Shown: in pieces, positions 6,459-54,228 of the stretch | Layout of the letters: every line of letters begins with the position of its first letter | How positions within the stretch are numbered: position 1 is the first letter of the stretch | Origin: Avibacterium sp. 20-132 | GTDB taxonomy: Bacteria; Pseudomonadota; Gammaproteobacteria; Enterobacterales; Pasteurellaceae | NCBI RefSeq assembly: GCF_023611925.1 | Contig: NZ_CP091456.1 | Span: forward strand, 930,001-994,000 | DNA: 64,000 bases | Direction: 5' to 3' | Notes under the pieces: model-generated | Told to the model about the DNA's origin: nothing | The model's input: only the letters and a program-made list of their open reading frames with translations | The model's database searches: none | Position numbers and translations under genes: made by a program

Positions 6459-7247
6459 TTATTTATTAGCTTGATTTAATACTGTTATACTTTTCCAACC
6501 TTCATTAGTGAGAATTAACACCGTACGTTGTTGATTTTTCGCTTTATCAAACAGGCGTCCAAATAATTTTTCTACATCGTTATTTGTTGCCCAAGAAGCA
6601 ACATTTTCATAGCTTACCGTATAATTTACTTGAGAAAGTTTTCCCCCTGATGCTCGTTCATTAGGTTCAGTGAATGTACCCACAGAATCTAATTTTAATG
6701 CCCCCGTACAAAATTTAGTTCGCGAAAACATCCCTGTGCTGAAAAATGGTTTACCTTGTTCAGTAACTTCATAAACATTCACGTTAAGGATTTTTTTCTT
6801 TCCCCAATCTAGTTTTTCAAGTTTGTCTGCTTTTGAAGTAAGCAGTCCTGCTTTGACGAAATAATCTGCCTGAGCAAGTGATTGTTGTATACGCTGATCA
6901 GATACATCTGTGTTTAAAATCAATGCAGCATTATGAAGTGGTGATTGGTCAGAAACGTATGTACCAGAAGGTAACGAAATACAAATAGCTGGGCTTTTTT
7001 GTAATGCCAATTGTTCTTCAATCGCTTTTGCGAAATTCTCTTTATTGGCTTCTTTAGGATCATTACAAGCGGTTAAAAATAAGCTTGCAAAGAGAGTTGA
7101 GAATATTAGTTTATTGCGGATTGCGGATTGCGGATTGCGGATTGCGGATTGCGGATTGCGGATTGCGGATTGCGGATTGCGGATTGCGGATTGCGGATTG
7201 CGGATTGCGGATTGCGGATTGCGGATTGCGGATTGCGGATTAGTCAT
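6459..7247 (-). CDS. Putative phase-variable lipoprotein with N-terminal NPQSAIR repeats
   Basis: Starting at the ATG at 7247 (ribosome site AAGGAG 7 nt upstream) the protein reads MT, then six tandem copies of NPQSAIR. A hydrophobic segment (NKLIFSTLFASLFLTAC) follows with a lipobox LTAC, then about 215 residues of unknown family. The repeats are coded by 18 copies of the heptamer CCGCAAT, placed between the start codon and the lipoprotein signal. Because 7 is not divisible by 3, gain or loss of one or two units shifts the frame, so the gene is probably switched on and off by slipped-strand mispairing; at 18 units it is in frame. Whether the long hydrophilic leader still allows export is unclear. 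The mature part contains two cysteines and I do not recognise it. Confidence 0.7.
   Translation of the reverse strand: MTNPQSAIRNPQSAIRNPQSAIRNPQSAIRNPQSAIRNPQSAIRNKLIFSTLFASLFLTACNDPKEANKENFAKAIEEQLALQKSPAICISLPSGTYVSDQSPLHNAALILNTDVSDQRIQQSLAQADYFVKAGLLTSKADKLEKLDWGKKKILNVNVYEVTEQGKPFFSTGMFSRTKFCTGALKLDSVGTFTEPNERASGGKLSQVNYTVSYENVASWATNNDVEKLFGRLFDKAKNQQRTVLILTNEGWKSITVLNQANK
7113..7238. repeat. Heptanucleotide tandem repeat, 18 units of ATTGCGG
   Basis: The 126-bp run consists of perfect ATTGCGG units followed by a partial ATT. It lies inside the coding region just after the start codon of the lipoprotein gene. The tract is long and pure, as in contingency loci of Haemophilus and Neisseria. 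Confidence 0.97.
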
Positions 7248-30779: not shown

Positions 30780-31322
30780 GTAGCCTTTTATTCAATCAAA
30801 ACACAAGATTTCCACCCAAGCCAGTAGAAAAATCATTCAAAAATCAAAACAAAAACCCATCAAATCAGGCTAAAAACCTTGAAGATTTTTGACCGCACTT
30901 TTAATCCCCTTTTTCCAATAAAAATGCAGCCTGAAAATATCAAACTTTCAGGCTGCCTGATTGGGCAAATGCTTTTAAATAGCGGTTTTATTCAATAGGA
31001 ATTTTCACCTGAGTTATTAGAAATAATCATCAAATCAGGCTAAAAACCTTGAAGATTTTTGACCGCACTTTTAATCCCCTTTTTCCAATAAAAATGCAGC
31101 CTGAAAATATCAAACTTTCAGGTAGCCTGATTTGGAAAACGCTTTTAAACAGCGGTTTTGTTTAATATAAATTTTCACCCGAGTCAGTAGAAAAAGGGTT
31201 TAAAGATAAAAGCAAAAATCCATCAAATTACGGCAAAAATAGCAGGATTTTTGACCGCACTTTTAATCCCCCTTTCCCAATAAAAACGCTGCCTGAAAAT
31301 CCTAAAACATTCAGGCAGCTTT
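30780..31322. repeat. Cluster of three intergenic repeat units carrying both USS and DUS
   Basis: A unit of about 180 bp recurs about three times. Each has a segment like TTTTGACCGCACTTTTAATC (Pasteurellaceae USS cores at 30892, 31062 and 31254) followed by an inverted pair of Neisseriaceae-type uptake sequences (arms at 30926/30947, 31096/31117 and 31288/31310). Linking blocks such as GCGGTTTTATTCAATAGG and TTTTCACCCGAGT also recur. The last dyad probably terminates the SDR gene. Confidence 0.85.
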
Positions 31323-42915: not shown

Positions 42916-43752
42916 ATGCAACTTGATTGGAACGATATTCACTATTTTTTGTTGCTGGTTGAAAAACAGACGCTCACCGCCACCGCCGAGGCTTTGGGTG
43001 TAGAGCACAGCACGGTCGCCCGCCGTATTGAACGCTTGGAAAAACAGCTCAATCTGCATCTTTTTGACCGCATCAATAAACGCTATTTGCTCACGGCAGC
43101 AGGGGAACGGCTTTATCCTGAAGCGAAAAAACTGCAATTTAATATCCGCCAGTTCCACCAAACCGCCGAAGATAGCCAGCAGGCGGTCAGCGAGGTGTTG
43201 CTGTCGGTTTCGCCCTTTGTTGCTCATGCCTTGATTGCCCCGCTGTTGCCGCTCTTTTATCAGCGTTTTTCTCATATTCGCTTGGTATTGACCAGCGACC
43301 CGACCTTAAGCAGCCTGCATCAGCGTCAGGCAGACATTGCCCTAAGGATTACCCAGCCCGAGCAAAACGACCTTGTTGCCCGCCGTCTATGCGATATTGA
43401 TTACCGCTGGTATGGGCATCAAGATTATCTTGCCGACACGCCCAAAGATGCTTGGCAATATCTGGGCTTGCACTTAGGCGGTACGCAGGTCAAATGGGTG
43501 GAGGAACAGCTGGCGGAAAAGCCTGTTTGCTTTGTGTGCAATGATTTTCAGATAATGCAGACCGCCATTGTCCACAAACTTGGCATTGGGCTTTTGCCTT
43601 GTGATTACCACACAGAGGCGATGACCGAACTTACCACCATGCCAAGCCTTAGCACACCGCTTTATCTCATCATGCACGAAGACGTCCGCCATAGCCAAAG
43701 CGTCCGTGATGTGGCGGATTTTTTGGGGACAGAGTTGGGGGATTTTTCATAG
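42916..43752 (+). CDS. LysR-type regulator next to the MBL-flavin reductase operon
   Basis: 278 residues from the ATG at 42916, chosen because MQLDWNDIHYFLLLVEKQTLTATAEALGVEHSTVARR then aligns with the paralogue at 39601; an ATG at 42904 is also in frame. It diverges from the operon at 41805-42812, its probable target. The 92-bp gap would hold both promoters. Confidence 0.9.
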   Translation: MQLDWNDIHYFLLLVEKQTLTATAEALGVEHSTVARRIERLEKQLNLHLFDRINKRYLLTAAGERLYPEAKKLQFNIRQFHQTAEDSQQAVSEVLLSVSPFVAHALIAPLLPLFYQRFSHIRLVLTSDPTLSSLHQRQADIALRITQPEQNDLVARRLCDIDYRWYGHQDYLADTPKDAWQYLGLHLGGTQVKWVEEQLAEKPVCFVCNDFQIMQTAIVHKLGIGLLPCDYHTEAMTELTTMPSLSTPLYLIMHEDVRHSQSVRDVADFLGTELGDFS

Positions 43753-44928: not shown

Positions 44929-45557
44929 TTTCTAAGCTATCTATGTGATGGATAATCATATCCCGCCAAAATGACGGATAATTTTTTCTTTCTAAGCCAT
45001 CTATGCGATGGATAACGGTAAACCAAATCACGGGTTAAGGTGGCTTGTATTTCTAATCCGCCTATGCGGCGGATAACGCTTAGCGATGTGGATAAGCTGG
45101 ATATATTTGTTTCTAAGCCGCCTATGCGACGGATAACCTGGTGGGGCGATTCCTACGGTCGCCCAATGGTTTCTAAGCCGCCTATGCGGCGGATAACACT
45201 GTGTCGCTACTTGCTGAATTAATCGCATTTTTCTAAGCCGCCTATGCGGCGGATAACTCAATCACAATCAAACATTACCATTGCCCGCATTTCTAAGCCG
45301 CCTATGCGGCGGATAACAATAATAGCTTGCCGTTTTTCACTGTGGCTATTTTCTAAGCCGCCTATGCGGCGGATAACTTCTGCTTCGCTCCAACGTGCGC
45401 CTGTGGCAATTTCTAAGCCGCCTATGCGGCGGATAACATAATAATTGCCGTCTGTGGTTATCTCATTAATTTCTAAGCCGCCTATGCGGCGGATAACTTA
45501 TCAAAATTTCCCCTGCTGAACAGGGGAAATTTCTAAGCCGCCTATGCGGCGGATAAC
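44929..45557 (-). CRISPR. Type I-F CRISPR array, 11 repeats and 10 spacers
   Basis: Repeats of 28 bp recur every 60 bp; read on the minus strand they begin GTTATCCGCCGCATAGGCGG and end CTTAGAAA, as in type I-F. Repeats start at 44929, 44989, 45050, 45110 and then every 60 bp to 45530. Spacers are 32 bp, one is 33 bp (45017-45049). The first three repeats (low coordinates) and the one at 45110 carry changes, so this is the old end and the leader lies at the csy4 side. The two oldest repeats keep the hairpin by paired changes (CCATC/GATGG). No spacer matches elsewhere in the window by eye. Confidence 0.98.
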
Positions 45558-45705: not shown

Positions 45706-46278
45706 TCACCAATGCGGTACGGTGCTGCCTTGATGGCTAAGCCCATAGCTGTTGTAGCTGCCATGAACGGCGGCATCAGCTGGTTTTTGCAGAATTACAA
45801 GCGGATAGGGTTGGGCGTTGGTCTCACTCGTCATTCTGATAAAGGGCGGGTGAAGCTCTGCTCTGCGGTGGGTTTTGCAATGTGTCAGTGCCTCTTCATA
45901 GCTGATTTGGCGGCGTTTTGCGTGGGCTTTGGCCTGCTGGTCAATTGGGCGGAAACGGTAGCGTTTAACCGTAACTGGCACTGCGTGGTTAGGCACGGCA
46001 GCTGGCTTTTTGATGTGGATATAGTCCGTCAATCTTGCCAGCCATTTTTCTAAATTCAGCGTTGCAAGGGTCGCCTCATCTGGAGCGATGAGGCGGATTT
46101 GATTGCCGAGGCTATGTTGCCCCAGTTCATAGCGGGGAAAACTCACCCCGATGCGGTTCATGCCTTCACGGTTCTGCACATCAGCCAAACCAATGTGCAG
46201 TTGTTTGTAGAGGGCTTCCCAAAGGGCGTGCAGCGGTATTTCTGCTGAGGGAAGCAGGGTAAGCTCTTGGTAAATCAT
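45706..46278 (-). CDS. csy4: CRISPR endoribonuclease Csy4/Cas6f
   Basis: Cas6f binds the repeat hairpin and cuts pre-crRNA at its 3' base, then stays on the crRNA. The 190-residue protein has MIYQELTLLPSAEIPLHALWEALYKQLHIGLADVQN at the N-terminus, where the His in LHIGL (about residue 28) is at the place of the catalytic His. An arginine-rich stretch, KRYRFRPIDQQAKAHAKRRQISYEEA near residue 107, corresponds to the RNA-binding helix. It directly precedes the leader and array on the same strand. Confidence 0.92.
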   Translation of the reverse strand: MIYQELTLLPSAEIPLHALWEALYKQLHIGLADVQNREGMNRIGVSFPRYELGQHSLGNQIRLIAPDEATLATLNLEKWLARLTDYIHIKKPAAVPNHAVPVTVKRYRFRPIDQQAKAHAKRRQISYEEALTHCKTHRRAELHPPFIRMTSETNAQPYPLVILQKPADAAVHGSYNSYGLSHQGSTVPHW

Positions 46279-46280
46279 GG

Positions 46281-47288
46281 TTACTCCTTACCGCTTTCAC
46301 CAAAGACGCCACCACGGATAAGAATCGCGATAACGTAGTGTTGCTCATCTTTTTTGGGGGCTTTGCCTTCTTTTATCCAAGGGTCAAACAGGCTGTAAAA
46401 ATCTTGTTTGTCTTTTGGCTGGCGGTAGGCGGTACCCAGTGTGGTAACCGCACCATAGGGTTCGGCGGCAATGGGGAATGCTGCGTTGGGATACCAGTTA
46501 TCTATGGTGCGGATGGCGTTGCCAATTTTTTGCGAATGGATACCTGCTTGATTTTGTTCACGTCCGACGGTGTAGAGGATTTTGCTTTTGTTTTTGCCCG
46601 TGTCTAGCACCAGTTCTTGGCTTGGGAAGACTTCTTGTCCGTTGCCGATGTTGGCTTGGGCTTCAACCTGCAAGAGGGTAAAGGCTTCGCCGTTAAATCC
46701 TGCTTCTATCCAAGCGGCAAGCTTTGTCAAATCTGGGCTTGCAAAGTCAAAATCATTGAGCGAAATATCACGGGCTTGGTTAAAGGTTAAGGTGTCCTCA
46801 CCGTTTTTGATGGTTACGGTGATGCTTTCGGCACCGATACGGTTACGCCACAGCCAACGGGCGTTAATCAGGTTGATGGCATAGCGTTTGGCAAGTTCGG
46901 CAAAACCTTGTTCTTGTTTGTACTGGGCAACGGTTTCTTCTAATGCTGCCTGAAAGTCTTGGTTGTTGCAGACACTGGGTTTGCCCGTAAAGGGTAAGAT
47001 TTTGCAGGTAAAGCTGGCAATGAGGGTATCGCAGTCTTCATTTAAGAAGGCGGCATCTACACGCTGCAGGTTGGCTTTTTCAATTTCTGCATCAAGTTTC
47101 GCAGGGTTGCTGGCAATCGCATTTTTTAAGCGGTTGCTGATGGTGCCGCGTACGGATTTTTCCCGCACGATAACGGGTTCTTTGACCGCATTTTCTTTTT
47201 GGCTGTTCGTTTGCCAGAGATAGGCGTCAGAAATATCAATTTTGCGTTCAAAGGCGAGTACGGTAACTTTGCTGTCAATTTTTGCCAT
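46281..47288 (-). CDS. csy3: Csy3/Cas7f, crRNA backbone subunit
   Basis: Cas7f forms the six-subunit backbone along the spacer and makes every sixth base flip out. The 335-residue protein opens KVTVLAFERKIDISDAYLW and has RWLWRNRIGAESITVTI near residue 147, both conserved in Csy3. A partial Neisseriaceae uptake sequence (GCTGCCTGAA) lies inside the gene. It ends 2 bp before csy4. Confidence 0.94.
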   Translation of the reverse strand: MAKIDSKVTVLAFERKIDISDAYLWQTNSQKENAVKEPVIVREKSVRGTISNRLKNAIASNPAKLDAEIEKANLQRVDAAFLNEDCDTLIASFTCKILPFTGKPSVCNNQDFQAALEETVAQYKQEQGFAELAKRYAINLINARWLWRNRIGAESITVTIKNGEDTLTFNQARDISLNDFDFASPDLTKLAAWIEAGFNGEAFTLLQVEAQANIGNGQEVFPSQELVLDTGKNKSKILYTVGREQNQAGIHSQKIGNAIRTIDNWYPNAAFPIAAEPYGAVTTLGTAYRQPKDKQDFYSLFDPWIKEGKAPKKDEQHYVIAILIRGGVFGESGKE

Positions 47289-47300
47289 GATGTTTTCCTC

Positions 47301-48200
47301 TTAAGGCTGTTGGACAAGATAAAGATTGTGTTCGGCATCATAGGTTTGATACCAAAAGGCGTGTTGTAAGTCGGCAATACGGTTCGGGAAGACCCATTTG
47401 CCAAGACTGTAAATGGTTTCAACGTATTGAGCTGGGTATTCGGGGTTGCGGCTGTTGTTGAGTTTGCCTGCTGCTATCACAGGGCTGATGCCTTGATAGC
47501 CAACAGGAATCGGCACAAGCCAGCCACGTCCTGTTTTAATGCTTTCACTGTGCCATGTACCGTCATCATCTGGAATTTGGTGGATAACAGCGGTTTCAAT
47601 CAGCGCATCAAGGGGCGAGAGCTGTTTTTCTTCGCAAATGGTGGTCAGTTCTTCGTGGGCATTCATCAAAATGAAAGCAGGCAGAAAATCTTTTTTGCAT
47701 TCATTGATGGTTTCGCTGTAGCTAACAGGGGCTTTGGCATCAATGCCAACCACGCTGCCGCCAGCTATCCGTTGCTGCTGAATTTTTTCAGCGATAAAAC
47801 GTTTTAAGCCGTCCATCTGCTGCTGTTCAAAGTTGCCGTAAATGCCAATGGCAAGGCTGACGGTGAGATGGCAGCGTCCTGATTCAATAATGGCGGCACT
47901 GCTGCCGTCTTTTAAAATCGGATTGCGTGTTTGGTTAAAACTGTAGTTGCTGTAACGGCTGTCGCGGTAACGCTGGATATGGATATCACGGCAGGCAATC
48001 AGCGTGCCATCTAACCGCAGATGGGAAAAATCTTGGCTTTGGGCAAGGGTGCGGCTTAAGGCATGTACGGCACCGACAAAGCCGCTGATGGCAGGGAATC
48101 CATAGGTGAGCGGACTTGACAGGGTATTGGCATTCTCAATACGCAAATTTTTAATAATCAGGTAGCCTGCCTGCGGATAATTGGGGTAAATGTGGCTCAT
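47301..48200 (-). CDS. csy2: Csy2/Cas5f
   Basis: Cas5f caps the 5' handle of crRNA as a Csy1-Csy2 pair. The 299-residue protein starts YLIIKNLRIENANTLSSPLTYGFPAISGFVGAVHALSR, and the GxxGWLVPIPVGYQGISPV region near residue 230 is typical. It overlaps csy1 by 4 bp, indicating coupled translation. Confidence 0.94.
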   Translation of the reverse strand: MSHIYPNYPQAGYLIIKNLRIENANTLSSPLTYGFPAISGFVGAVHALSRTLAQSQDFSHLRLDGTLIACRDIHIQRYRDSRYSNYSFNQTRNPILKDGSSAAIIESGRCHLTVSLAIGIYGNFEQQQMDGLKRFIAEKIQQQRIAGGSVVGIDAKAPVSYSETINECKKDFLPAFILMNAHEELTTICEEKQLSPLDALIETAVIHQIPDDDGTWHSESIKTGRGWLVPIPVGYQGISPVIAAGKLNNSRNPEYPAQYVETIYSLGKWVFPNRIADLQHAFWYQTYDAEHNLYLVQQP

Positions 48201-49555
48201 TGAAATACTCCTTCACCAAGACGCTGTGAGGCTTTAATGGCATCTTCAATCGCAGTTTTCCAATACAGATATTCTGGTGTACCAAAATCACTGCTTTGGA
48301 TTTGGCCGTCTTTTTCAAAGATTTCTTTCAGGCTGCTTTGCAACCAATCGGCGAATTGTGTAGCAACAACATTTTGCCAGTCCTCTTCTTCACGGTCTTG
48401 CTGGTGGTCTTCATCGGGATTGTTTGGATCAAGCCAGAGGCTTTGCTCAAAATTAAGTTTGCTATCCTCGCTCCAGCCTGCAGGCTGCTGCTGTATGGCG
48501 GCTGCGATGGCAAAGGTTTCCATCAGGATTTCGGCAAGTAAATCATCACGTTGTTCACGCAAAGAAACGTTGTTGCGTCTGTCTTTGATAATTTCAGCCA
48601 GCCTTTTGATTTTATAACGCATTTTATGGCGGTAAGCACGGCTTTTAAATAAGCTGCTGTCGTGCTTGGTAAGCTGCACCGTTCCAAAGGCCCGTTTTTG
48701 AAAAATAGGCGGAATAGACGGCAGAAGATATTGGCGGCCGCCCTGACGGCTGTTAAGCAGGCTGATGTTCTGCGGCTTAGTACCGCCAAGCTGGGTTGCG
48801 GCAAGATTTTGCAGTTCTTGATAAGGGGCTTGCGGTTTGTCTGGGTGTTTGTAGCGGTTTTCGCGTGCGGTTTTTTGCTCATCACTATAACGGCGGTGAT
48901 TGATGTTGAGATAGACCTCATGGGTTAATTTGGAAGGGTGCAGCGGTACCAGTGTGCAATATTCGTTTTCATCGGGGTGGATTGCCCAGAGGATTTGCTT
49001 GTTGCGTTCGTGGGTACTTGGCGTATCGGGCTGGGCGGTTAAGCAGCGGTAAAATACTTGCTGATAGTGCTTGGAGTGTTCAGCATCTGTACCAAAACAG
49101 CCGTGAAGTGCAGGCAGTTGGGCAAGAATCACATCACGCATCAGGTATGACCCGCTGACGGGCTGTTCAAAAAAGGCGGCTAACGGCAGTGCGGCGGCAT
49201 TACCGCTGGCATCAAGCTGTGTACTGTCTATGCTGTGCGTGCCGATATAGCTGTGTACTGAGCTGCCGCTAAAGATAATGTTGTCGCCTTTGGCATCGCT
49301 GTGAATGCCTTTAGAGGTGTGGGTGCCAAAATTTAACTGCCCCGCCATTTTTTCAGCAGCCTGAAACCAATGGTCTGCTTGGTATTTTTCTTGAATCGGA
49401 CGCAGGGCTTCACGGGCTTCGGCAATGGCGATGGGATCATTTTCTTGCTCAGCTTTGGCAAGCTGTTTTTGTTCTTTTTCGCTTTTCTTGTGGTATTGGG
49501 CGGTTAAAAAGGCGTTGATTGCCTCTTTAATCTGTTCAGCGGTGATGGTGTTCAT
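48197..49555 (-). CDS. csy1: Csy1/Cas8f, PAM-recognising subunit
   Basis: Large subunit of the Csy surveillance complex that reads the CC PAM. It has 452 residues, near the usual 430-440. Conserved pieces include QLNFGTHTSKGIHSDAKGDNI near residue 70 and the LGGTKPQNISLLNSRQGG block near residue 258. CGAGGT before the ATG is a modest ribosome site. It heads the csy1-2-3-4 operon from its own promoter at 49591-49619, directly beside a candidate Csy target site. Confidence 0.94.
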   Translation of the reverse strand: MNTITAEQIKEAINAFLTAQYHKKSEKEQKQLAKAEQENDPIAIAEAREALRPIQEKYQADHWFQAAEKMAGQLNFGTHTSKGIHSDAKGDNIIFSGSSVHSYIGTHSIDSTQLDASGNAAALPLAAFFEQPVSGSYLMRDVILAQLPALHGCFGTDAEHSKHYQQVFYRCLTAQPDTPSTHERNKQILWAIHPDENEYCTLVPLHPSKLTHEVYLNINHRRYSDEQKTARENRYKHPDKPQAPYQELQNLAATQLGGTKPQNISLLNSRQGGRQYLLPSIPPIFQKRAFGTVQLTKHDSSLFKSRAYRHKMRYKIKRLAEIIKDRRNNVSLREQRDDLLAEILMETFAIAAAIQQQPAGWSEDSKLNFEQSLWLDPNNPDEDHQQDREEEDWQNVVATQFADWLQSSLKEIFEKDGQIQSSDFGTPEYLYWKTAIEDAIKASQRLGEGVFQ

Positions 49556-49590
49556 AGAAGACCTCGTTTGTAATCTGCTTGATGGTGTAT

Positions 49591-49619
49591 ATACTAAGTC
49601 AAAAAAATCAGGTTATCAA
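49591..49619 (-). promoter_or_regulatory. Promoter of the csy operon
   Basis: On the minus strand TTGATA (49614-49619) and TAGTAT (49591-49596) are 17 bp apart. Transcription would start near 49584, about 28 nt before csy1. The -35 box touches the CC of the candidate PAM at 49620-49621. Confidence 0.7.
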
Positions 49620-49640
49620 CCATTGTTTTTTTATTTTTAA
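49620..49640 (+). promoter_or_regulatory. Candidate Csy autoregulation target: CC PAM plus 19-bp protospacer
   Basis: CC at 49620-49621 is followed by ATTGTTTTTTTATTTTTAA. The pseudo-spacer of the nearby crRNA-like gene is ATTGTATTTTTGTTTTTCA. Only positions 6, 12 and 18 differ, the positions not read in type I complexes. The site adjoins the csy1 -35 box. The T-rich sequence makes some chance similarity possible. Confidence 0.7.
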
Positions 49641-49654
49641 TAAAAATTGGTTTT

Positions 49655-49683
49655 TTGTCTTGGTAAGCCTTTTGTGCTACAAT
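49655..49683 (+). promoter_or_regulatory. Promoter of the crRNA-like RNA
   Basis: TTGTCT (49655-49660), 17 bp, then TACAAT (49678-49683) with an extended -10 TG at 49675-49676. The predicted start, about 49690, falls at the base of the first pseudo-repeat hairpin. Confidence 0.65.
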
Positions 49684-49689
49684 GAAAGA

Positions 49690-49757
49690 CCGTCGCATAG
49701 ATGGCTTAGTAAATTGTATTTTTGTTTTTCACTTAGCCGCCGCCTAGGTGGTTTTTT
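49690..49757 (+). ncRNA. Candidate CreR-like crRNA: pseudo-repeat, 19-nt spacer, pseudo-repeat/terminator
   Basis: The first pseudo-repeat (49685-49712) matches the array repeat at 19 of 28 bases and at 17 of 20 over the hairpin and handle, with the stem kept by a paired change (CCGTC/GATGG). It ends in CTTAGTAA, one base from the normal 8-nt handle. The 19-nt pseudo-spacer is 49713-49731. The second pseudo-repeat (49732-49759) also matches 19 of 28, keeps the stem (CCGCC/GGTGG) and is followed by six T, so it can serve as Cas6f site and as terminator. The unit is divergent from csy1 and lies between csy1 and cas2-3. The predicted RNA is about 68 nt. Known parallels are CreR-type RNAs of other type I systems. 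Expression is unproven. Confidence 0.7.
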
Positions 49758-49800
49758 CATAGGTTGCTTAAGCCCTGTCCTCGACTCGTACAGAGTAACC

Positions 49801-49843
49801 TAAGTAAAAAATTTTTCAACCATTGTTTTTTTATTTTTTTATA
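49801..49843 (+). repeat. Second copy of the csy promoter-side motif
   Basis: CAACCATTGTTTTTTTATTT recurs here exactly as at 49618-49637. With its CC PAM at 49820-49821 it matches the pseudo-spacer at 15 of 19 positions (differences at 6, 12, 18 and 19). Flanking sequence (ACTTAG on the minus strand) is also similar, so this part of the gap is a partial duplication. The rest of the gap from 49844 to 49924 shows nothing clear. Confidence 0.65.
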
Positions 49844-49924: not shown

Positions 49925-52900
49925 TTACTCATTTTCCCAGCAGCCAAAGTATTCATGAAAATACCAAGTATGTTGTCTCTCTGGCAGGGTGATGCCGGCA
50001 AAGCGGATGACGGCGGTATTGTCAGAGATGCCCAGTTTTTCGCTTAATTGGCTGATTTGTGTTTTGAGTGAGGCGGTGAGCCATGGGGTGATGCCTTCAT
50101 TATTATTTTCAAAAGGATAGGGCTTAATCACATCTTGGGCTGTTTTAGCACCCGAAAAACCATGGGCTTCAATTTGTTCTAAGTGATATGGCACATTGCC
50201 ACTGTCTTCGGGGCGGATAAGGTAGTCAGCTTCTTTTTCGCCTTGTCGGAATGGGCTTAGGCGAATCAGGTGGCAGTGATGGCGGTTTAGGAGTTCAGGC
50301 TGCCAGTAGGCATTGACGATATTGATTTTGTCATTTTGCATCAGCTCGGCAAGCACTTGATGTTCTAGGTCGGATAGGCGGTTTTTGGGGTCGGGTTCGG
50401 CTGGCTTGATGATGCGGGGCTGGGCATCAATACGCTTGAGCTGTTCGGCAGGTATGAGGGTTTCGCAATTGTGGCTGTTTAGGCGGTACTCGGCACTTTC
50501 ATAGCCTGGGTGGATAAAGGCACAGTTTTCTTGTTTGATGCCACGGATATTGTGCTGCCAGATGCCAAGGTTGGGCATTTTGGGCTGCCTGTAGGGGCGG
50601 TGGCGGTTGATGCGTCCTGCCAGCTGAATGAGCGATCGCATGGAGCTGGGTTCAGCAATTGCCCAGTCGTAGTCGTGGTCGCGTCCGACTTCACAGACGG
50701 GGCTTGCCAGCACGATAAAGAGGTGATGCTTGGCGTTGGGATAAGCGGCAATCGCGGTTTTGATGGCTGGGTGGTTGGCAGGGTTGTTGCCGTTTTTGCG
50801 GTTTAGTATTGCATCAAGCTGTTGTTCCAGTTGGTTACGCAGTATGAGGGCTTGCCTGCTGTGATAGACGGCAAGGTGGATATGGGTGTCTTTGGCAAGA
50901 CTGTCTTGTGCATACAGGGCAAGTGCGGTCTGCATCATGGGCGTGATGTTCGCCATACGGATGAGCCCAATGCTGATGGTTTTTCCGTTTTCGTCAAAGT
51001 GGTGGCGATGATGGTAATCTGTTGCGTATTCAAGCAGTTGTTTGGCAATTGCTGGATAGAAGCGTTTGGGGTTTTTGCTTACTTTGGCGACCATCGGCAG
51101 GATTTCGCCTATCCGCTGTATGGGCTGTTGTTTCAGGCAGCGTTGGCGTTTTTCCAAAAAGCGTTGGTGGGCTTGGCTGTGCTGGCGGGTGTCGGTGCAG
51201 GTGCTGATGCTGCTGTGGTTTTCATCGCTCCATAGGCAGGGAATGGACGGTGCTGGCAGGTTAAAATTTTCGTTGTAAATTTTGCGTCCTTCTAGGTAAG
51301 CGGTAAATAAGCCATACACTTGGTCGGGCTGTAAGGTAGCTGATGAGAGTATGATGCGGCTGCCGTATAGCCCTGCCAGATGCACAAGCCGTGTGAGGGC
51401 GGGCAGGTCGCTTTCGGAGAAGTCGTCTGGTTCATCAAGGATAAGGTCGCTTGAGAGCAATCGCAGGGTGGGAATGATGTAGTGTCCGCCACGAAGCTGT
51501 TCGCTGGCTTGCATGAGATGGTCAATGGTGCAGCTGACAATGGGGCTGTAGAGCAACAGCTGGGCTTTTTCTTGCTGGGTGAGTACGCCAAGCCCAAGTA
51601 CGTCAAAATCTGATGGCTCAAAGCGGCTGTCCACATAGCTGTCAATGAGTGATTCGGCAGAGAGGCTGCCGTTTTCTTCGCTGTCTTCTTCGGTTTTTTG
51701 ATTAAGTTCAAAAAGCTGTTTATTGGCTCGTCCGCCCACTAAGACGGCGAGTTCTTTTTCGCTTAAGCCAAGGTCTTGTCGCAGGCTGGCACCTGTCTGC
51801 AAGGTGAGTGTCCGCAGTCCTAGGGCAATGGTAAAGCGTGCCCCTTGATGTGTATCGGCCAGTGCATAGGCAATGCGGGCGTTGGCGATGGTTTTGCCGC
51901 AGCCAGTAGACGCCATATTGATGGCAAAAAAGCCATGGGTTTGACTTTGTCCGCTGACTTCTCTTGCCAGTTTGAAGGCTTGGTTTTGCCATTGAAATCT
52001 TGCGGTTGCGGTGTTTTTAGCTAGGCTGTCGTGGTCTTTGAGTTTGGGTAAGGCTGCCTGAATAATGGGCAAGGCTTTGGCGACACGTCCGCAATAGTCC
52101 GCTACGCCAAGCAGATGTTCGTCAAGGGCTTGTTTGGTTTCTTTGGTTTTGCGGTCGGTATTGGCGATAAGTTTATCCTGCCAATCGGTATCGCCTGACA
52201 CGCGTTGTTTGCTGTCTTTGGGCTGTGAAGAGTAGTTGTGGTCGCCTGTCATCAGGATTAAGCGGGAAAGATTCAGCAGCAAGGGATTGCTGATGGGGCT
52301 TTTTGGCTGGCTTAATGCGGTCAATTTGGAGTCGTTTTTGGCTTTTTGGGCAAAGCGTTTAAGCTGCTTCTGCAAGGTTTTGCTATGCAAAACAAGGTAT
52401 TCAAATTGCCAGTTTTGCTTCAGATTTGCGGTAATTTGGGGGTTATGCACCCAATGATTGATGGCACGCAAGCTTTTATAAAAATCTTGAGCAGAGACGT
52501 TGTAGTATCGATTCCCTGCTTGCTGCATTTCCTTGATGGCGTTGGTGGTGTAGCCGTCATCGCTGGCATCTGTGTCTTGCAGCCGTGGCAGGGGCGGCAG
52601 ACGGTGATGGGTAACAATCAGCCAGCCAATCCATTGGGCAAGCGGCGGCAGGTTCTGCATATTGGCGTAGCCATAATCGCTTGTTTCAAATGCGGGCTTA
52701 TGGTTAGCAAGATAATGGTCTAAATGGATTAAGCGGTCAAACACGGCTTCATCGGTTTGACAGTCAGCAACGAGCCATAGAAAGAGTTTTAACGATACCC
52801 ATTCATGGCGGTAGGGTTCGCCTTTTGTGGCGGTTTGCCCTTTGAGTTTCTGCTGGAAACCTAAATTGGATTTGCCAATATCATGCAGTAGGGCGGCAAG

Positions 52901-53251
52901 GGTTGCGATGATTTGCATGGCGGTGAGATATTGCCAATCGTTTTCCCATTCTTGATGCATGATATTTCTCTTGGTGTAATTAACAGGAACAATGCCTAAT
53001 TCATTAAATTTACGTCTGTTGCCAATAATAAAAAGCAGTTCTGTGGTATGACTGGTGCGATTGCGGTGGCAGCTGACGGCGGTGGATTTAGTGGCACTTT
53101 GACGCAGCAGCGCGGCAACGGTATTAAGCCCTTCTTGGGTGATGGCTGTCTGCCAAACGTTATCGCCAATGCGGTTGGCAAAGCTATCGAGTATACGGCG
53201 GGTGCGTTTTAATGCTTTCTTTTCGCATTGGCTGACAAAGGTAACAATCAT
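49925..53251 (-). CDS. cas2-3: Cas2-Cas3 fusion, nuclease-helicase of type I-F
   Basis: The N-terminal 100 residues (MIVTFVSQCEKKALKRTRRI) are the Cas2-like part used in spacer acquisition. An HD nuclease domain follows (LLHDIGKSNLGFQQKL). The superfamily 2 helicase has Walker A STGCGKTIANARIAYA, DExD-box LDEPDD, and motif VI LIQLAGRINRHRPYR. I chose the ATG at 53251 after GGGAGG; the frame extends four codons further, overlapping cas1. It has 1108 residues. Uptake sequences of both kinds lie inside: AGGCTGCCTGAA at 52051 and AAGTGCGGT at 50921. Target degradation requires recruitment by the Csy complex. Confidence 0.95.
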   Translation of the reverse strand: MIVTFVSQCEKKALKRTRRILDSFANRIGDNVWQTAITQEGLNTVAALLRQSATKSTAVSCHRNRTSHTTELLFIIGNRRKFNELGIVPVNYTKRNIMHQEWENDWQYLTAMQIIATLAALLHDIGKSNLGFQQKLKGQTATKGEPYRHEWVSLKLFLWLVADCQTDEAVFDRLIHLDHYLANHKPAFETSDYGYANMQNLPPLAQWIGWLIVTHHRLPPLPRLQDTDASDDGYTTNAIKEMQQAGNRYYNVSAQDFYKSLRAINHWVHNPQITANLKQNWQFEYLVLHSKTLQKQLKRFAQKAKNDSKLTALSQPKSPISNPLLLNLSRLILMTGDHNYSSQPKDSKQRVSGDTDWQDKLIANTDRKTKETKQALDEHLLGVADYCGRVAKALPIIQAALPKLKDHDSLAKNTATARFQWQNQAFKLAREVSGQSQTHGFFAINMASTGCGKTIANARIAYALADTHQGARFTIALGLRTLTLQTGASLRQDLGLSEKELAVLVGGRANKQLFELNQKTEEDSEENGSLSAESLIDSYVDSRFEPSDFDVLGLGVLTQQEKAQLLLYSPIVSCTIDHLMQASEQLRGGHYIIPTLRLLSSDLILDEPDDFSESDLPALTRLVHLAGLYGSRIILSSATLQPDQVYGLFTAYLEGRKIYNENFNLPAPSIPCLWSDENHSSISTCTDTRQHSQAHQRFLEKRQRCLKQQPIQRIGEILPMVAKVSKNPKRFYPAIAKQLLEYATDYHHRHHFDENGKTISIGLIRMANITPMMQTALALYAQDSLAKDTHIHLAVYHSRQALILRNQLEQQLDAILNRKNGNNPANHPAIKTAIAAYPNAKHHLFIVLASPVCEVGRDHDYDWAIAEPSSMRSLIQLAGRINRHRPYRQPKMPNLGIWQHNIRGIKQENCAFIHPGYESAEYRLNSHNCETLIPAEQLKRIDAQPRIIKPAEPDPKNRLSDLEHQVLAELMQNDKINIVNAYWQPELLNRHHCHLIRLSPFRQGEKEADYLIRPEDSGNVPYHLEQIEAHGFSGAKTAQDVIKPYPFENNNEGITPWLTASLKTQISQLSEKLGISDNTAVIRFAGITLPERQHTWYFHEYFGCWENE

Positions 53252-54228
53252 GCTGCCTCCCAATCGGTTTTTAAAGCCAGTGCTTTTATCAGGTCAAATT
53301 GGGTATCTAAGGCATTATGTTTGATGAATTGATTTAAGCATTCTTGGCGAAATTGCTGTTCACTTAGGTTGTCGGCAGCAGCGATAAAGGCAAGCGGTAA
53401 GACTAATGCATCTTTGATGATGTCGGCAATATCAAAAACGAGCGCACCGCGTCTTGTTTTTCCGTGCATCACGGCAAAACCGTGCGGAATGCCTAGCACC
53501 CATGCGGTTGTCGCGCCCAGCCCGTAGGCAAGATAATTGCCGTGATTTAAAAAGCGGTTGGCTTTGTCGATGCCGTCATGTTCGCGGCTAAAGCCTTCTT
53601 GTTTGGTACAGCTTGCGGCGGCTTTATAAAGGGCTTTGGTCAGATGGGCTTCATGTTGGAGCAGATGCGTTATGCTGCTTTGTTGGGCAATGGTGTTTCG
53701 GGCAGTTTCAATGGTGTGCAAAATCGCAGGAGCATTAAATCCACGGGCAATGAGTTCACGGTCTTTTTGCCAAATGGTTAATAGATAATCCATGCGTGCA
53801 GTTTGCAGTATTTTTGCTGCCTGAAGCCGTTTATTATCGTCCCACCACCATGAAAGCCAGCCTTGCACATATTCCGTTGGGCGGTATTCGCTTTGCGGTG
53901 TCAGCCAGCTGATTTCCGTGCCAGCAAAGAGCGGGGTGCCGCCACCGCCGCAAAAGCCGACCAACACACCAGCCTGAGCCAACACACGCATAGCGGCTTG
54001 TGTGATAGAAGTGCCTGTCCCGAGTAAGATAACGGTTGTATTGGCAATGGGAATATTGTAATAGAGATTAGCACGTTCATCTTCAGTGAGATAAAGAACA
54101 CGGCCGTCTTTTTGCATCACGCGGCAATATTCCAAGTAATACATATTGGCACGCTTGCTATGCAGAATGGTTTTGAGATCGGAAACATTGAATCCAGATG
54201 CCTGATAAGGGCTTAGTGCATGAGGCAT
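53248..54228 (-). CDS. cas1: Cas1, type I-F integrase
   Basis: Integrase that inserts new spacers with the Cas2 part of Cas2-3. The 326-residue protein begins SDLKTILHSKRANMYYLEYCRVMQ and has VGFCGGGGTPLFAGTEI near residue 92 and FLNHGNYLAYGLGATTAWVLGIPHGFAVMHGKTRRGALVFDIADIIKDA near residue 230, the type I-F Cas1 pattern with the catalytic Glu/His/Asp region. It starts the cas1-cas2-3 unit, overlapping cas2-3 by 4 bp. The 100-bp gap upstream is AT-rich, without a convincing promoter or Csy target. Confidence 0.95.
   Translation of the reverse strand: MPHALSPYQASGFNVSDLKTILHSKRANMYYLEYCRVMQKDGRVLYLTEDERANLYYNIPIANTTVILLGTGTSITQAAMRVLAQAGVLVGFCGGGGTPLFAGTEISWLTPQSEYRPTEYVQGWLSWWWDDNKRLQAAKILQTARMDYLLTIWQKDRELIARGFNAPAILHTIETARNTIAQQSSITHLLQHEAHLTKALYKAAASCTKQEGFSREHDGIDKANRFLNHGNYLAYGLGATTAWVLGIPHGFAVMHGKTRRGALVFDIADIIKDALVLPLAFIAAADNLSEQQFRQECLNQFIKHNALDTQFDLIKALALKTDWEAA

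Follow-up and report, generated by a model that had tools for sequence, protein, structure and literature searches.

The csy locus and its upstream gap

In the type I-F locus of Avibacterium sp. 20-132, two degenerate CRISPR repeats enclosing a short spacer lie in the 369-bp gap between cas2-3 and csy1, which raises the question whether they serve to regulate the operon next to them. The window, i.e. the whole stretch of 64,000 nucleotides analysed here, carries a complete locus of type I-F1 composition, with cas1, cas2-3, csy1-4 and an I-F repeat (Table 1). The array lies on the minus strand and its repeat reads GTTATCCGCCGCATAGGCGGCTTAGAAA in crRNA sense. Csy1 has its closest relative in Avibacterium sp. 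21-595 (95% identity).

Table 1. Features of the csy locus and of the cas2-3/csy1 gap (positions in the window).
Feature	Position	Strand	Details
CRISPR array	44929..45557	-	11 repeats, two at far end degenerate
csy4 (cas6f)	45706..46278	-	TIGR02563; RNase proposed to cut the predicted RNA
csy3	46281..47288	-	TIGR02566
csy2	47301..48200	-	TIGR02565
csy1 (cas8f)	48197..49555	-	TIGR02564, E 2.1e-107
csy1 promoter P1	49591..49619	-	-35 TTGATA 49614-49619, -10 TAGTAT 49591-49596; scan 9/12
Target site 1	49620..49640	+	PAM CC 49620-49621, protospacer 49622-49640; 16/19, mismatches 6, 12, 18
Predicted creR promoter	49655..49683	+	-35 TTGTCT 49655-49660, -10 TACAAT 49678-49683, extended TG; scan 9/12
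PsiR1 (pseudo-repeat 1)	49685..49712	+	19/28 to array repeat, 5/5 stem pairs
Pseudo-spacer (guide), 19 nt	49713..49731	+	matches two CC-flanked sites in gap
PsiR2 (pseudo-repeat 2)	49732..49759	+	19/28, 5/5 stem pairs; 3' hairpin
P2, promoter-like, beside site 2	49792..49819	-	-35 TTGAAA 49814-49819, 16 bp, TACTCT 49792-49797; 8/12
Target site 2	49820..49840	+	PAM CC 49820-49821, protospacer 49822-49840; 15/19, mismatches 6, 12, 18, 19
cas2-3	49925..53263	-	TIGR02562; longest ORF, start codon provisional
cas1	53248..54228	-	TIGR03637

The mini-CRISPR

The coordinates and match counts that the first-pass annotation had given for both pseudo-repeats were reproduced, and all 5 pairs of the stem are kept in each. 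Elsewhere in the 64 kb, the array excepted, no further 28-mer combines at least 18 matches to the array repeat with at least 4 stem pairs. The near-misses are at 43015 (19/28, 2 stem pairs) and 32080 (18/28, 3 stem pairs), and stretches with 17/28 matches and all 5 stem pairs were found at 44955 and 13373. Folded as single hairpins, PsiR1 reaches -8.2 kcal/mol (z -2.66) and PsiR2 -10.2 kcal/mol (z -2.71); the whole fold of 81 nt is not outstanding (z -1.34, 18 of 200 shuffles as good). Rfam called neither pseudo-repeat at E values up to 1.

PsiR1 provides the hairpin for the predicted Csy4 cut together with the 5' handle CTTAGTAA. In PsiR2 a T run largely replaces the last 8 nt, and the terminator scan marked 49735-49753 plus this T run, in agreement with the earlier reading of the second hairpin as a terminator; judged by its sequence, PsiR2 can double as a predicted terminator. 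Terminator-like sites numbered five compared with 0.5 in shuffles. The promoter scan recovered three matches: TTGTCT-17-TACAAT with TG, proposed earlier as the promoter of the RNA, TTGATA-17-TAGTAT in front of csy1, and one more. Since these three compare with 1.3 (sd 1.0) in shuffles, the promoters by themselves prove little. A mini-CRISPR of degenerate repeats beside cas genes is characteristic of CreR; the predicted gene is named creR here.

One guide with two targets

The match of the guide to site 1 was confirmed as first described, with 16 of 19 bases, an adjacent CC and mismatches only at positions 6, 12 and 18. In type I complexes the bases flipped out are those at every sixth position. 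With the guide shuffled, a match of this kind has a chance probability of 0.0025, and none of 28 spacers from other loci matches this gap equally well. Site 1 abuts the -35 box of csy1, as had been claimed, and the complement of its PAM, GG, is joined to the TTG of P1, as in 16 of the 31 targets surveyed below. The 64 nt from the PAM to the csy1 ATG contain, by our reading, the promoter and the ribosome site only. The guide is partly complementary to a cas promoter, a PAM is present and no toxin gene stands between target and csy1, all of which is typical of CreR.

A second target, overlooked in the first-pass annotation, lies beyond the mini-CRISPR, and this is the unusual part of the arrangement. 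The two sites share 23 identical bases (49616-49638 and 49816-49838), a block made up of the PAM, protospacer positions 1-17 and the four leading bases of the -35 box. Beyond this block identity drops to 3/10 in the one flank and, farther away from it in the opposite flank, to 5/10 and 1/10. Next to site 2 stands P2, which is promoter-like in sequence but weak. It scored 8/12 at the same GG joint, a score of at least 8 being reached by 5 of 377 control GGs, and is absent from a stricter promoter scan. By its orientation P2 would read antisense across creR, towards csy1.

In the 2.585-Mb genome, guide positions 1-17 (6 and 12 free) fit exactly at two places, both in this gap. A third place, 2116918-2116936, fits with one mismatch, and the reversed guide, used as a control, found no place in the genome.

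Occurrence in other type I-F loci

The survey drew on the best 80 of 232 Csy1 loci, on 27 matches in 25 of 140 family genomes and on 6 of 16 plasmid records, eight loci being fetched twice; it was made without the gap of the closest relative, Avibacterium sp. 21-595. A search of genome contigs with the window Csy1 alone returned no relative, and an alignment was used instead. At the DNA level the gap has matches of 22-49 bases in 4 of 60 genomes besides its own, which we took as chance, and no relatives in plasmids.

Two repeat-like hairpins separated by 14-32 nt were detected in 33 of 47 cas2-3/csy1 gaps (cas2-3 upstream, gap of at least 100 bp, window included). The enclosed spacer matches a CC-flanked site in its own gap at a shuffle p<0.01 in 28 of these 33 and at p<0.05 in 31, the weak members being L066 (0.036), L080 (0.012) and L083 (0.010). 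With the PAM ignored and ties shared, the best match was nevertheless CC-flanked in 29.75 of 31 loci, near-identical loci being counted separately and L042 and L089 dropped for a detected spacer of 32 nt. Over the 24 distinct spacers among the 28, mismatches fall at position 6 in 16/24, at 12 in 18/24 and at 18 in 15/21; there are 0/24 at each of positions 1-5 and 7, and 1 to 6 at every other position up to 20. The T-rich sequence, which the first-pass annotation had named as its main caution, is answered by the survey.

A scan independent of the array repeat, in which positions 6 and 12 were unscored, was positive in 36 of 110 csy1 upstream regions (including the eight fetched twice, one of them positive); its background was 3 in 913 control pieces and none in 565 shuffles. 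It recovers the Acinetobacter LoGeW2-3 module (L113), which PMC10097628 describes as CreTA and whose Csy1 has just 25.6% identity to a Moraxella Csy1, and it found L049, one of the 14 of 47 gaps in which the pair detector had seen no pair. The other 13 pairless gaps were still empty in a relaxed scan, whose background was 3 matches in 113 shuffles; of its matches, L010 and L015 were catalogued and L023, L025, L058, L064 and L116 left out. A lone repeat-like hairpin is present in the pairless gaps L070, L087, L088, L098, L106 and L111, possibly a one-repeat version.

Among the other Pasteurellaceae loci, 10 of 23 have a mini-CRISPR with a CC target by any scan, and L008, L013 and, more weakly, L010 show the same design without cas2-3 just upstream. 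From these 10 of 23 loci and the 14 pairless gaps of 47 we conclude that the device is common but not universal.

In two loci, L042 and L089, the mini-CRISPR has three repeats, and its 32-nt spacer finds no significant target within the gap; another spacer of L042, of 20 nt, has one. L065, L068 and L080 have two CC-flanked targets per guide, of which the second is weaker; both lie between the mini-CRISPR and csy1.

Position of the targets and conservation of the repeats

All scans were united by hand in a catalogue of 47 loci, 46 of them distinct (L020 equals L063). The csy1-side edge of the target lies at most 140 nt from the csy1 ATG in 34 of the 47 and far from it in 13, and the guide measures 14-31 nt in all 45 with known length. 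Of 31 targets listed by hand, all of them on the strand that does not carry csy1 (L010, L113 and L115 not included), 16 have GG running straight into TTG, compared with 5 of 377 other GGs. The mean promoter score there is 7.1 versus 4.0 (p 5e-14), with site 2 of the window scored apart. TTG after GG was seen in neither CreTA control. The joint and the promoter scores together indicate a frequent design, in which the csy1 promoter would have the Csy complex at its upstream edge.

Identity to the array repeat, compared in 29 loci whose stems were part of their selection, is 0.92 for the last 8 nt of PsiR1, 0.90 for the PsiR2 hairpin and 0.75 for the PsiR1 hairpin; it is 0.56 for the first 5 nt of PsiR2 and 0.33 each for the first 5 nt of PsiR1 and the last 8 nt of PsiR2. 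The best-kept parts are those a mature guide would retain, and the parts outside drift. The covariation of guide and promoter site that the first-pass annotation had proposed to look for in relatives came out mostly in its favour. Among the changes at pairing positions in 10 pairs of loci, 29 affect guide and target alike and 10 do not; the three closest pairs (L039/L040, L099/L103, L041/L072), however, have 4 such changes, all of them one-sided. The pairs were chosen by us and are not independent, Psychrobacter loci recur, the homology of some spacers is uncertain and the targets are best matches, so that the covariation is supportive at most.

Several loci depart from the design in what follows the target. 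In halomonad L083, L090, L099, L102 and L103 the targets lie at about -240 to -270, with 240-268 nt between target promoter and csy1 and with clear hairpins there at least in L090, L099 and L103; this stretch may be a creT-like RNA or a structured leader. In L051 (-256 to csy1), AAGGAG directly follows the target and precedes a short frame with AGG CGG codons, which has a creT-like look. The guide of the two Psychrobacter loci L039 and L040 (20/20 and 19/20) is directed at the promoter of a small gene that stands ahead of csy1 in the cas2-3/csy1 gap and the product of which is in L039 a DUF2188 protein (PF09954, E 1.3e-19). This points to a protein cargo of unknown function under the control of an RNA-guided switch.

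Probable autorepression of the csy operon

The layout, the pairing, the PAM, the promoter joint and their recurrence are directly visible in the DNA. The proposal of the first-pass annotation that a crRNA-like RNA mediates autorepression is still the best reading, and the same arrangement is found in many I-F loci whose sequences are unrelated. On these grounds the element is very probably an autorepressor of the CreR type, acting on csy1-4, the csy operon of this I-F locus. Published analogues make it likely that the RNA is transcribed, cut by Csy4 and bound, that it represses and that repression is relieved when Csy is drawn off.

The RNA would start near 49690, be cut by Csy4 behind the first hairpin and end at the second one with its T run. 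The product, an 8-nt handle, the 19-nt guide and the 3' hairpin, would be bound by Csy1-4 like a crRNA and would pair with the two CC-flanked sites, failing at every sixth base (at site 2 also at 19). Thus placed, the Csy complex would keep RNA polymerase off P1 and probably off P2, too. When Csy proteins are occupied by real crRNAs or by anti-CRISPRs, repression would lift and more Csy would be made. Cas2/3 should not cut the sites, because the R-loop would fall far short of 32 nt. A study on the I-F1 Cascade of Aggregatibacter, also one of the Pasteurellaceae, backs the earlier suggestion that a short spacer allows binding without efficient cleavage. This complex assembles and binds with guides of about 14 nt or more, and Cas2/3 is triggered only by full-length or longer R-loops; the PAM is stated there as C or CT, not CC (PMC7296934). 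The matched guides of the survey, with their 14-31 nt, stay below the length needed for cutting by I-F1 Cas2/3. A short guide and a Cas2/3 that needs the full R-loop would explain why the self-target is tolerated.

With one guide for two target copies, one at P1 before csy1 and one at P2 beyond creR, P2 and creR might form a mutually repressive switch, a reading that we consider rather unlikely. In such a switch the Csy-CreR complex would shut P2, and firing of P2 would silence creR, either through collision or through antisense pairing. If this were true, a shortage of Csy (by infection or an anti-CRISPR) would flip the operon fully on instead of raising it smoothly.

Alternative explanations

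Alternatively it might be that the RNA belongs to a CreTA module, as an antitoxin guide repressing a toxic small RNA (CreT), here made from P2 at site 2. The published LoGeW2-3 module lies in the same gap, has the same guide/CC-target layout and is found by the same kind of scan (PMC10097628). Downstream of P2, a frame of 27 codons does start with ATG and hold AGG CGG CGG, AGG being rare here (1.9 per 1000 of 5912 codons), but no Shine-Dalgarno sequence is suitably spaced in front of it, and most of it is the complement of the two hairpins. The 141-nt minus-strand RNA folds no better than shuffles (z -0.30), behind site 1 we read no more than promoter and ribosome site before csy1 begins, and the published mini-ORF pattern occurred in L113 and L115 only. 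These points make CreTA improbable for the window. A search for a CreT downstream of sites 1 and 2 gave no mini-ORF preceded by a Shine-Dalgarno sequence, as it occurs in I-F CreTA. Since such a frame follows neither site and only the csy1 promoter and ribosome site stand behind site 1, the element is called CreR-like.

There is very little probability that the guide works chiefly on another gene or serves as a decoy filling Csy, with csy1 repression incidental: the target promoter of Psychrobacter L039 and L040 drives a small gene and not csy1 itself, and one further genome place fits the guide with one mismatch, but both exact places lie in this gap and site 1 abuts the csy1 promoter. A decayed array remnant with a fortuitous spacer-target match, for which low complexity, repeats of only 19/28, the silence of Rfam and a promoter scan hardly above shuffles might speak, is just as improbable, given that the match, PAM, mismatch spacing, promoter joint and constraint pattern exceed the controls and recur in unrelated sequences.

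Comparison with known systems

CreR has been described for types I-B, I-E and V-A (PMC13131331), is attributed to type I and V-A generally (PMC12737573) and appears among cas-regulating RNAs also in PMC12948488; it represses cas genes in other CRISPR types (PMC12737573, PMC13131331). Like these, the window element would give a crRNA-like RNA beside cas genes, with a guide partly matching a cas promoter and with no coupling to a toxin gene. Unlike the types reported, it belongs to I-F and has two target copies.

The first-pass annotation knew of no such RNA in type I-F. This has to be corrected, since PMC10097628 places CreTA in the same gap of Acinetobacter I-F loci and CreR is known from other types. 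The Acinetobacter I-F CreA represses transcription via the Csy complex and needs Csy4, and its CreTA shares with our element the cas3-csy1 gap, the order PsiR1-PsiS-PsiR2 and a CC target; in WCHA45 the CreTA guide is 20 nt long and mismatched at 6, 11 and 18. It differs in controlling a toxic RNA with a Shine-Dalgarno sequence and a 33-bp mini-ORF, and in that transcription starts upstream of the target (PMC10097628). The Racr solitary repeats of phages are likewise repeat mimics taken up by I-F Cas6f and Cas7f, but they are prophage-borne inhibitors with one repeat and no guide (PMC10651486).

The literature searched contained no paper on an I-F CreR. Mini-arrays matching cas8 promoters are, however, reported by Shmakov et al. 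2023 to be widespread, and an I-F1 mini-array is reported to act as a regulatory guide; it is of the same kind as the window element. The kind is thus already known, and the double target is possibly the novel aspect.

The predicted CreR would extend RNA-guided autorepression to a Pasteurellaceae I-F locus. The rules from the survey, i.e. a guide of 14-31 nt, a CC PAM often touching the -35 box and free positions at every sixth base, may help to find I-F switches, to distinguish CreR from CreTA and to predict loci derepressed by anti-CRISPRs. As a possible bistable immune switch, the double site lends itself to testing.

Other repeats in the window

The Pasteurellaceae uptake word AAGTGCGGT occurs in 28 copies in the window. 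Two tandem copies of a 170-bp unit (92% matches) were observed at 30858-31193. At 7113-7241 there is a perfect tandem repeat of the 7-nt unit ATTGCGG with 18.4 copies, possibly a phase-variable site, as the unit is not divisible by three.
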